DNA of 64,000 bases from Yoonia litorea. Its GTDB lineage: Bacteria; Pseudomonadota; Alphaproteobacteria; Rhodobacterales; Rhodobacteraceae. This document shows positions 10,196-29,443 of the stretch, one piece after another. The first letter of the stretch is position 1, and each line of letters opens with the position of its first letter. Below the pieces are notes generated by a model. The model saw only the letters and a program-made list of their open reading frames with translations, was not told the DNA's origin and did no database searches. The stretch lies in assembly GCF_900114675.1 (NCBI RefSeq), contig NZ_FOZM01000002.1, forward strand, positions 1 through 64,000, in the 5' to 3' direction. The position numbers and the translations under genes are program-made.

Positions 10196-10378
10196 ACCGT
10201 CTGCTGTGCCTGAGAGTTTCGCCCTGGCTGGGCTTGCTCCTTCGGCGGGCCACTCAAGGCCACTCTTCGGCGTTTTGCACCCCAACCGGTCCTTTTGCCT
10301 GAGAGTGACCGGGGCGGTTGCTCCTTCGGCGATGAACCCTGCGACTGAAGGGAGCATTCTCTCCCGGTCGGCGTGTTT
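10196..10378 (-). ncRNA. Tandem glycine riboswitch upstream of dadA
   Basis: On the minus strand two aptamers follow each other. Each has the core GCCGAAGGAGCAA (10318-10330 and 10234-10246) followed by the 3' element CTCTCAGGCA (10296-10305 and 10207-10216). The first aptamer also has the 5' GGGAGAG (about 10360-10366). These are the hallmark conserved segments of glycine riboswitches. The RNA ends about 40 nt before the dadA start, so it is a cis-regulator of that gene; the on/off direction cannot be read off directly. Confidence 0.9.
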
Positions 10379-28489: not shown

Positions 28490-29131
28490 ATGACACGCAT
28501 CCTTCCCGGCGTTCTCGCCATGGCCACGATTGTGGTCGCCTCAAACATTCTTGTGCAATTTCTCCTGCTCGACGGTCTGCTGACCTGGGGCGCGTTCACC
28601 TATCCGCTGGCGTTTCTTGTCACCGATATCATGAATCGTGTCTATGGCGCCGCTGCCGCGCGGAGGGTTGTCTTTTCGGGTCTCGTGGTCGGGATCATCT
28701 GTTCGCTGATTGGCAGCCAGATCATGTTGCAGGGTGATGGTTACGAATATCCTGCTGTTGCGCTCAGGATCGCGATTGGTTCGGCAACGGCGTTTCTGGT
28801 GGCACAGCTTCTTGATATTGCCGTCTTTGACCGTCTGCGTGACGGCTCGTGGTGGAAAGCACCGCTGGGCAGCACGCTTGTCGGCTCGACCGTCGATACA
28901 ATCATCTTTTTCAGCATCGCTTTTGCGTCTGTTTTCAATGGGTTGAGCGCATCAGCCGCGGAAGAGGTCATCTGGGCGCAGGACGCGGCCCCGTTCCTAA
29001 ACATCGGTCCGATGGTCCCTCTTTGGGTCACTTTGGCTGTCGCTGACTGGGGGGTGAAGCTGAGTATCGCCCTGCTTGCACTGGTGCCATTTCGCATCAT
29101 TGTGGGCCGGATCATGGCACGGACGGTCTAA
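28490..29131 (+). CDS. Queuosine-precursor transporter, VUT family (YhhQ-like)
   Basis: 213 residues with about six membrane segments. FPLAFLVTDIMNRVYG-type motif (here YPLAFLVTDIMNRVYG) is diagnostic of the VUT/YhhQ family, which imports queuosine precursors such as preQ0/preQ1. I use the ATG at 28490; a TTG 21 nt upstream is possible. A GTCCCC/GGGGAC hairpin (28437-28454) lies in the leader, but I could not match it to a known preQ1 riboswitch. Confidence 0.85.
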   Translation: MTRILPGVLAMATIVVASNILVQFLLLDGLLTWGAFTYPLAFLVTDIMNRVYGAAAARRVVFSGLVVGIICSLIGSQIMLQGDGYEYPAVALRIAIGSATAFLVAQLLDIAVFDRLRDGSWWKAPLGSTLVGSTVDTIIFFSIAFASVFNGLSASAAEEVIWAQDAAPFLNIGPMVPLWVTLAVADWGVKLSIALLALVPFRIIVGRIMARTV

Positions 29132-29202
29132 ACGCCACTGCTGGTATCTTTTTTCTTGAATTATACCAAATCTGTGCCAACTTTCGATTAGGCGAAACAT
29201 TT

Positions 29203-29340
29203 GAAAGGAGGTGATCCAGTGCATCATGAGGTATTGGAGAAGTGTGTCGGGACAACTTGGGAGGTTCGCAGCTGAGGCAGCCCTTGGCTGAAGAATACCC
29301 AAGGTGGGGATCCTAACCGAACCACCTCCCTTAATTCAGG
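29203..29340 (+). ncRNA. Candidate structured RNA or leader with extended Shine-Dalgarno, unknown
   Basis: GAAAGGAGGTGATCCAG (29203-29219) is complementary to 17 nt at the 3' end of 16S rRNA. CTTGGG (29256-29261) can pair with CCCAAG (29298-29303) around a small CAGCC/GGCTG hairpin, and CACCTCC (29323-29329) can pair back to GGAGGTG (29207-29213), masking it. A terminator follows at 29341. The element has clear ends and internal pairing, so a discrete transcript is likely. I know no family that matches. Confidence 0.5.
29219..29275 (+). CDS. Possible 18-residue peptide behind the extended ribosome binding site
   Basis: GTG at 29219 lies 7 nt after AGGAGG and reads VHHEVLEKCVGTTWEVRS then TGA. 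An overlapping alternative starts at ATG 29226 (21 residues, MRYWRSVSGQLGRF...). Spacing favours the GTG. There is no homologue known to me, so this may be a regulatory leader peptide or not translated at all. Confidence 0.3.
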   Translation: MHHEVLEKCVGTTWEVRS

Positions 29341-29375
29341 AAAGGGCCATCCCATCGCCGGGGTGGCCCTTTTTC
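29341..29375 (+). terminator. Strong terminator upstream of arfB
   Basis: AAAGGGCCA and TGGCCCTTT arms, with additional inner pairing, are followed by a T run. It separates the structured element from arfB. Confidence 0.85.
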
Positions 29376-29377
29376 CA

Positions 29378-29443
29378 TGTGCACAAGGCGTACACAGGCT
29401 GTACACCAGCTGTACACAGCCTGTGCAGACACCTGCTGTACAG
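29378..29443 (+). repeat. 11-bp tandem repeat array of TGTACAC-type units
   Basis: Units begin at 29378, 29389, 29400, 29411 and 29422, an exact 11-bp period: TGTGCAC, CGTACAC, TGTACAC, TGTACAC, TGTGCAG. A sixth unit (TGTACAG) starts at 29437. The core TGTACA is itself palindromic. The array fills the space between the terminator and arfB, where the promoter of arfB should be. Confidence 0.8.

Follow-up and report, generated by a model that had tools for sequence, protein, structure and literature searches.

A structured RNA gene with an extended Shine-Dalgarno sequence in Rhodobacteraceae: a distant relative of CC2171 and a candidate ribosome-controlled switch

The locus

We begin by considering what lies in the window, by which we mean the whole stretch of 64,000 nucleotides of Yoonia litorea DNA that was analysed computationally. 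In the interval between a VUT transporter gene and arfB there is a predicted RNA gene, the features of which are collected in Table 1. Its 5' end is placed from the position of the promoter and from the start of the Rfam match (29195). Near its 5' end lies a block that is the perfect complement of the 3' end of the genome's own 16S rRNA and contains the Shine-Dalgarno (SD) core. It runs on through a short open reading frame (ORF), a mimic of the anti-SD sequence (CACCTCC) 110 nt beyond the complement, and a terminator. Between this terminator and arfB (29385-29442) there are three TGTACA boxes in about 45 bp (GTACACAGGCTGTACACCAGCTGTACACAGCC); within the genus, GTACA units differ strongly in number and are not always present, as might be expected of a small tandem array or of clustered regulator sites. 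Elsewhere in the window, a glycine riboswitch aptamer (10277-10376, reverse strand) scores 59.1 bits, above the Rfam gathering score.

Table 1. Predicted features of the RNA gene and its surroundings, with positions in the window.
Feature	Position	Strand	Remarks
VUT (Vut_1, queuosine-precursor type) transporter gene	28490-29131		upstream neighbour
-35-like block TTGAAT, predicted own promoter	29156..29161	+	47 nt ahead of the 16S complement
Predicted -10 region	about 29179-29184	+	follows the -35-like block
Predicted RNA gene	29193..29375	+	about 175-183 nt; RF01867 alignment, same-genus conservation
Extended SD (16S 3' end complement)	29203..29219	+	17 nt, GAAAGGAGGTGATCCAG
P1, 5' strand, SD core GGAGGTG	29207..29213	+	partner 29323-29329; paired in 97.6% of cells, 41 genera
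P2 hairpin, start codon inside	29215..29238	+	29215-29222 with 29231-29238; 95.8% of cells pair
ORF, GTG start, TGA stop	29219..29275	+	18 codons, peptide MHHEVLEKCVGTTWEVRS
P5 helix	29247..29320	+	29247-29250 (TCGG) with 29317-29320 (CCGA); 96.9% of cells pair, two pairs change two-sidedly
P3 helix	29256..29303	+	29256-29261 (codons 13-15) with 29298-29303 (3' of stop); partner-swap test
P4 hairpin around the stop codon	29269..29290	+	5 of 6 counted pairs compensatory; 0 of 2000 permutations
Candidate anti-mimic AGGTGG	29302..29307	+	alternative partner of 29322-29327 (CCACCT); helix-length swap test
P1, 3' strand, anti-SD mimic CACCTCC	29323..29329	+	fold, covariation, SD accessibility
Intrinsic terminator hairpin and T-run	29339..29374	+	two-sided changes in 7 of 8 pairs
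arfB, Pfam RF-1 domain	starts 29468		downstream of the element

Sequences resembling the -35 block recur at other loci. Of 79 Rhodobacteraceae loci, 51 carry TTGAC at -47 to -50 relative to the SD block, whereas none of the 79 has it in a control interval. CTTG[ACT] is found at about the same position in 74 of 155 loci from other orders and in the control in 13 of 155. The TTGAAT block of the window was missed by a generic sigma-70 scan.

Of 109 Rhodobacteraceae loci, 105 have VUT upstream and 93 have arfB downstream on the same strand; 16 loci have no arfB in the retrieved stretch, at least one of them being too short to judge and about 14 sufficiently flanked. Outside the family neither gene is present in 150 of 158 loci, the remaining eight being Rhodobacteraceae that had escaped the family filter, and in other orders the neighbouring genes differ in kind and in strand. 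The same RNA occurs class-wide without arfB, and the stretch from terminator to arfB is variable even within the genus. The initial annotation had taken the ribosome-rescue factor encoded by arfB as an argument for ribosome sensing. This argument falls away, since VUT is at least as constant a neighbour and the element is kept without arfB, other orders included. As read from sequence, the element is an autonomous small RNA gene with its own predicted promoter and terminator, not a leader of arfB.

Family and distribution

An Rfam scan at the curated cut-offs gives no match at the element. At an E-value threshold, RF01867 (CC2171) is aligned over its full length (1-159 of 159) to positions 29195-29370 with 44.2 bits (E 3.3e-8), which falls below the gathering score of 75 bits. 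With this model one locus each is found in 95 of 120 Rhodobacteraceae genera, none of the 120 reaching the cut-off, and loci are found in 61 of 289 genomes drawn from Alphaproteobacteria. The exact core pattern occurs in 56 of 289 Alphaproteobacteria genomes and in 0 of 182 from other Pseudomonadota, and control patterns were without matches. The element is usually present once per genome and is conserved in all 36 same-genus genomes, its own included. A pattern of the 5' block reaches at least 119 genome loci; the 80 matches listed are alphaproteobacterial by title, one being titled only Proteobacteria, and among them are Rhizobiales, Sphingomonadales, Caulobacterales, Rhodobacterales, Rhodospirillales and Acetobacteraceae.

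The 14-nt core of the 16S complement (AAAGGAGGTGATCC) has a sole other copy in the 3.32-Mb genome, on the complementary strand of the 16S gene; from length alone, about 0.02 matches per genome would be expected by chance for any 14-mer. The 17-nt match to the anti-SD tail that the initial annotation pointed out is indeed present, and otherwise lies only in the complement of the 16S gene. Over the 118 loci found with the model, AAGGAGGTG agrees with the 16S complement at 1.00 per position and its flanks at 0.69-0.98. The complement of the 16S 3' tail, 15-17 nt long, is shown by these alignments to be nearly invariant, with the start codon at a fixed spacing behind it.

By our own sorting, the sub-types follow the orders (MSHC.., MSHGSA.., MSS[DE].. 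and ..KRCHLAG.., with MSR.VLERGVGT.. in Rhodobacteraceae). Common to them are the promoter block, CAACA, the SD block, the start codon, mostly a UCN second codon, and the terminator. We treat the element in the window as a divergent and distant relative of CC2171, by the Rfam rule not a member, and take it to be the form that a CC2171-related RNA, spread across Alphaproteobacteria, has in Rhodobacteraceae.

Several individual loci deserve mention. At least one genome of the class (G047) carries two sub-types, MSHC.. and MSHGSA.., at C1:805104-805255 and C1:2921849-2922077 (L047, L107), and the loci of the G047 family include RNAs of the sphingomonad type (MSHGSA). Five of the seven matches on viral contigs (IMG/VR contigs L271, L272, L273, L276 and L277) are of the Bradyrhizobium type, and on three of these five the upstream ORFs resemble antisense readings of tRNA genes; these may be prophages that end at a neighbouring tRNA, not phage-borne RNAs. 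A variant on a further viral contig (L274, around 100, reverse strand) has an ORF that begins GTGTCACCTCCTTTTTC (MSPPFSF); its mimic comes directly after the start codon and may fold with the SD into a nearly perfect hairpin. At L214 (titled Azospirillum) and L262, the same 5' block is followed by a longer ORF, with more than 50 codons (MSHGA..LFGLAALLTAG..), which resembles an exported small protein.

Fold and covariation

The minimum-energy fold of the single sequence has -78 kcal/mol (z -4.3), with 0 of 200 shuffles equally stable, and contains the pairing of the SD with the mimic, the CTTGGG/CCCAAG helix and the terminator hairpin. All three had been proposed in the initial annotation, and the comparison with relatives bears them out: across 41 genera the back-pairing of CACCTCC and the inner stem are conserved or vary compatibly, and the terminator gives the strongest covariation in the pair scan.

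The covariation alignment consists of 41 Rhodobacteraceae loci from 41 genera, and the controls are shuffling, sliding and swapping; the swap and Fisher tests retain shared ancestry. In the structure made up of P1, P2, P4, P5 and the terminator, 95.2% of cells are paired and 15 pairs show two-sided changes. Shuffles have 6.6 such pairs, and none of 500 comes as high; when the structure is slid, 40-58% of cells are paired and 3-7 pairs are two-sided. P3 is missed in the plain MAFFT/RNAalifold consensus of the family alignment because of gap placement. Since MAFFT misaligns this helix, a partner-swap test was used for it, in which the sum is -560 with its own partners and -384 with partners swapped between genera (sd 15.5, 0 of 2000); for P4, too, no permutation matches the own partners. 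An unbiased scan of all window pairs gives z values of -10.9 for the terminator, -9.7 for P3, -6.3 for P4, -3.5 for P1 and -3.2 for P5 over a background with an sd of 1.6, the first four being among the strongest signals. On this comparative evidence, the predicted fold of P1 to P5 with the terminator is real in Rhodobacteraceae.

In the core pairs of P1, two-sided changes are absent among the 41 genera because the SD is fixed by the 16S rRNA. The SD base next to the core covaries with the mimic: loci with GTGG carry C in the mimic in 20 of 21 cases, and loci with GTGC carry G in 4 of 8, as against 1 of 93 elsewhere (Fisher p 8e-5). Judging by these bases, a departure of the SD from the 16S complement tends to be matched by a change in the mimic. 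For the anti-mimic, the bases facing the mimic are T-A in 8, C-G in 10, T-G in 1 and C-A in 0 (p 1e-4), and the helix-length swap test gives z 5.2. It pairs in 7 of 39 predicted SD-open folds, and because it is thermodynamically a minor and weak partner we grade it as a candidate. Pairing of the P2 loop with the linker that follows the mimic, which would make a pseudoknot, had an energy z of -7.0, but was dropped because it is unsupported when continuous helices only are scored (own 4.88 vs swapped 4.74). Ahead of the mimic, CTAACCG/CTAACTG is highly conserved (alignment A1, columns 149-158); P5 accounts only for its CCGA/CTGG part, not for CTAA.

For GGAGGTG, the predicted unpaired value rises from 0.006 in the own genus to 0.04 in other Rhodobacteraceae, and to 0.33-0.34 when the downstream sequence is shuffled. 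Bradyrhizobiaceae have 0.12 (0.24 shuffled), and in the MSHC, MSHGSA and MSS[DEG] types the predicted accessibility of the SD is no lower than in shuffled sequence. By this modelling, SD sequestration is clear in Rhodobacteraceae alone, with a hint in Bradyrhizobiaceae. Sequestration across the class was rejected, the other orders pairing the SD no more than shuffled sequence does, and the switch therefore cannot be the class-wide function. Opening the SD is predicted to cost about 10 kcal/mol on average and 11.1 in the window, and the SD:16S duplex is predicted at -29.7.

Open reading frame and peptide

The GTG-start frame of the initial annotation is present, with the predicted length. Of 71 genus-level loci in Rhodobacteraceae, 67 keep it at exactly 18 codons, and TAG, TGA and TAA all serve as the stop at codon 19. 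The next question is whether the peptide itself is under selection. In 98 distinct Rhodobacteraceae sORFs no selection at the amino-acid level was detected (synonymous fraction 0.174 vs 0.163 column-shuffled, p 0.36) and the three codon positions are equally variable; this test has limited power because the RNA structure overlaps the ORF. At the class level the ORF lengths, 14-36 codons, are close to the chance expectation, and it is therefore Rhodobacteraceae and the sphingomonad type with 18 codons that carry the claim of a conserved frame. In Rhodobacteraceae, the frame is shown by comparison of the ORFs to keep its length of 18 codons while the peptide drifts.

Interpretation

Bacteria must match the supply of mRNA to that of free ribosomes. 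We infer the sensing of ribosomes by this element from its anatomy: the length of the 16S complement goes far beyond what ordinary initiation requires, the product is unselected, and ribosome occupancy would therefore be the signal. The initial annotation had suggested a ribosome-sensing RNA beside arfB. What stands of it is a structured RNA with ribosome recognition (covarying fold, near-invariant 16S complement, sequestered SD), and what does not is the appeal to arfB.

The explanation that we prefer, and hold to be probable on balance if only just, is a two-state RNA in which the SD has two alternative partners, its own mimic (off) and the 30S subunit (on), and in which ribosome loading, not the peptide, sets the state. 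The nascent or free RNA would shut itself through P1. A 30S subunit, with a complement longer than that of the mimic, would capture the SD and open P1; it would then translate the 18 codons through P2, P3 and P4, finishing in P4, and the mimic would be left free or be taken by the anti-mimic after translation. Candidate outputs are the stability of the RNA, an anti-SD strand released onto other mRNAs, and the holding of 30S subunits. The predicted fold, in which the mimic hides the SD, suggests that free ribosomes would open the switch in Rhodobacteraceae.

A more far-reaching version, which we offer as a tentative and rather doubtful possibility, is a class-wide RNA gene with a conserved 30S-binding function and an unselected "dummy" ORF, to which Rhodobacteraceae would have added a 16S-mimic lock and so made a gene-independent sensor of free ribosomes. 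The lock would consist of the SD, the anti-SD mimic and possibly the anti-mimic. To our knowledge, dedicated ribosome-availability RNAs without a linked gene have hardly been described.

Other explanations have to be weighed against the two-state RNA. The element could be a short mRNA that encodes a functional peptide of 18 aa, its structure merely regulating translation, and the strong SD, the start and stop codons that are always there, the constancy of the 18 codons and the likeness of the peptides within the family (e.g., MSREVLERGVGT) would fit such a role. Against this stand the synonymous fraction and the equal variability of the codon positions given above; moreover, the peptides are unrelated between orders past the first two residues, and the conserved residues fall on paired bases. 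As a functional small-peptide gene the element was rejected for the lack of purifying amino-acid selection (p 0.36), and we regard the peptide explanation as decidedly unlikely. An RNA that acts as a decoy by binding the 30S subunit through its anti-16S sequence, and so occupies free or idle subunits with an ORF that serves only for run-off, is unlikely as well. It would explain why selection extends across the whole 15-nt complement, beyond the needs of initiation, and why the 5' 30 nt are constant class-wide while the remainder changes, but a pure decoy has no need of the Rhodobacteraceae mimic that hides the complement, and the conserved frame length also speaks against it.

Control of arfB by a translation-dependent transcription attenuator is suggested by the leader ORF, the structured middle and the intrinsic terminator ahead of arfB, together with the same-strand position of arfB in most Rhodobacteraceae loci. 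We find it very improbable: the element is kept without a downstream arfB and in orders with neither VUT nor arfB, the terminator is conserved everywhere while the stretch from it to arfB is unconserved within the genus, no covarying antiterminator was found (P4 vs terminator, z -0.1), and in the unbiased pair scan the 5' arm of the terminator has no other partner. As the main function, attenuation of arfB was rejected on the varying downstream genes and strands and on the missing covarying antiterminator. Hardly to be expected, finally, is a trans-acting anti-SD sRNA that would target mRNAs through its CACCUCC strand and be gated by the ORF. Translation would free the anti-SD strand, known anti-SD motifs are carried by loops of Rhizobiales sRNAs (PMC3927594), and the conservation of CTAACCG ahead of the mimic would suit a targeting strand; yet the predicted fold keeps the mimic paired, and P5 partly explains CTAACCG.

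The RNA is found in most of the sampled Rhodobacteraceae genera and is scattered across other alphaproteobacterial orders. With the two-state RNA, the uncharacterised Rfam entry CC2171 gains a concrete hypothesis, under which point mutations in the SD, the mimic and the start codon predict opposite effects.

Comparison with known systems

Landt et al. 2008 is said to be the source for the Caulobacter sRNA CC2171. The element shares with CC2171/RF01867 a nearly identical 5' block (CAACA..GAAAGGAGGUGAUCCAGUG), an alignment over the full length of the model including the terminator, and the setting of an intergenic stand-alone gene with a terminator; it differs in the middle of the RNA and in the fold of SD with mimic. 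The internal consensus helices of RF01867 give many non-standard pairs and a low-confidence middle on the element, and P1-P5 of Rhodobacteraceae is a different arrangement. In the literature searched, CC2171 is named only in lists or database notes, with no function described, and the R. sphaeroides sRNA literature searched gave no match to the element. Two Caulobacter ncRNAs, unnamed in the main text of the source, are reported to be translated (PMC4117421).

Two kinds of rhizobial RNA share single traits with the element. The S. meliloti rnTrpL/peTrpL is an attenuator-derived sRNA with a 14-aa ORF, released through transcription attenuation (PMC10117765), and is likewise a small RNA carrying a short ORF; it is, however, leaderless, trp-linked and codes for a functional peptide, whereas the element has an extended SD, lacks a fixed downstream gene and shows no detected selection on its peptide. 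The Rhizobiales anti-SD sRNAs SmelA075 and SmelA099, with the loops CCUCCUCCC, also have an anti-SD sequence within an sRNA (PMC3927594). In these sRNAs, described as trans-encoded, the motifs lie in hairpin loops, whereas the mimic of the element would pair with its own SD and is accompanied by an ORF.

The nearest analogue would be the S. meliloti duf1127 uORF leader. The leader of the duf1127-1 mRNA has a 29-aa uORF close behind a short 5' UTR; without a bound ribosome its ribosome binding site pairs with C-rich uORF codons, and the RNA, not the peptide, is what matters (PMC12218461). It yields a uORF-containing sRNA, has been proposed as a monitor of ribosome availability, and controls the downstream DUF1127 gene, presumably through Rho (PMC12218461). 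A motif search for DUF1127-like proteins near all loci was empty, and a link of the element to DUF1127 genes was rejected. The element differs, too, in having an intrinsic terminator and in placing its mimic downstream of the ORF, not in uORF codons. We therefore compare the two as a likeness of logic and claim no homology: in both, by prediction and covariation on the side of the element, the SD would be paired with a C-rich segment as long as the RNA is free of ribosomes.
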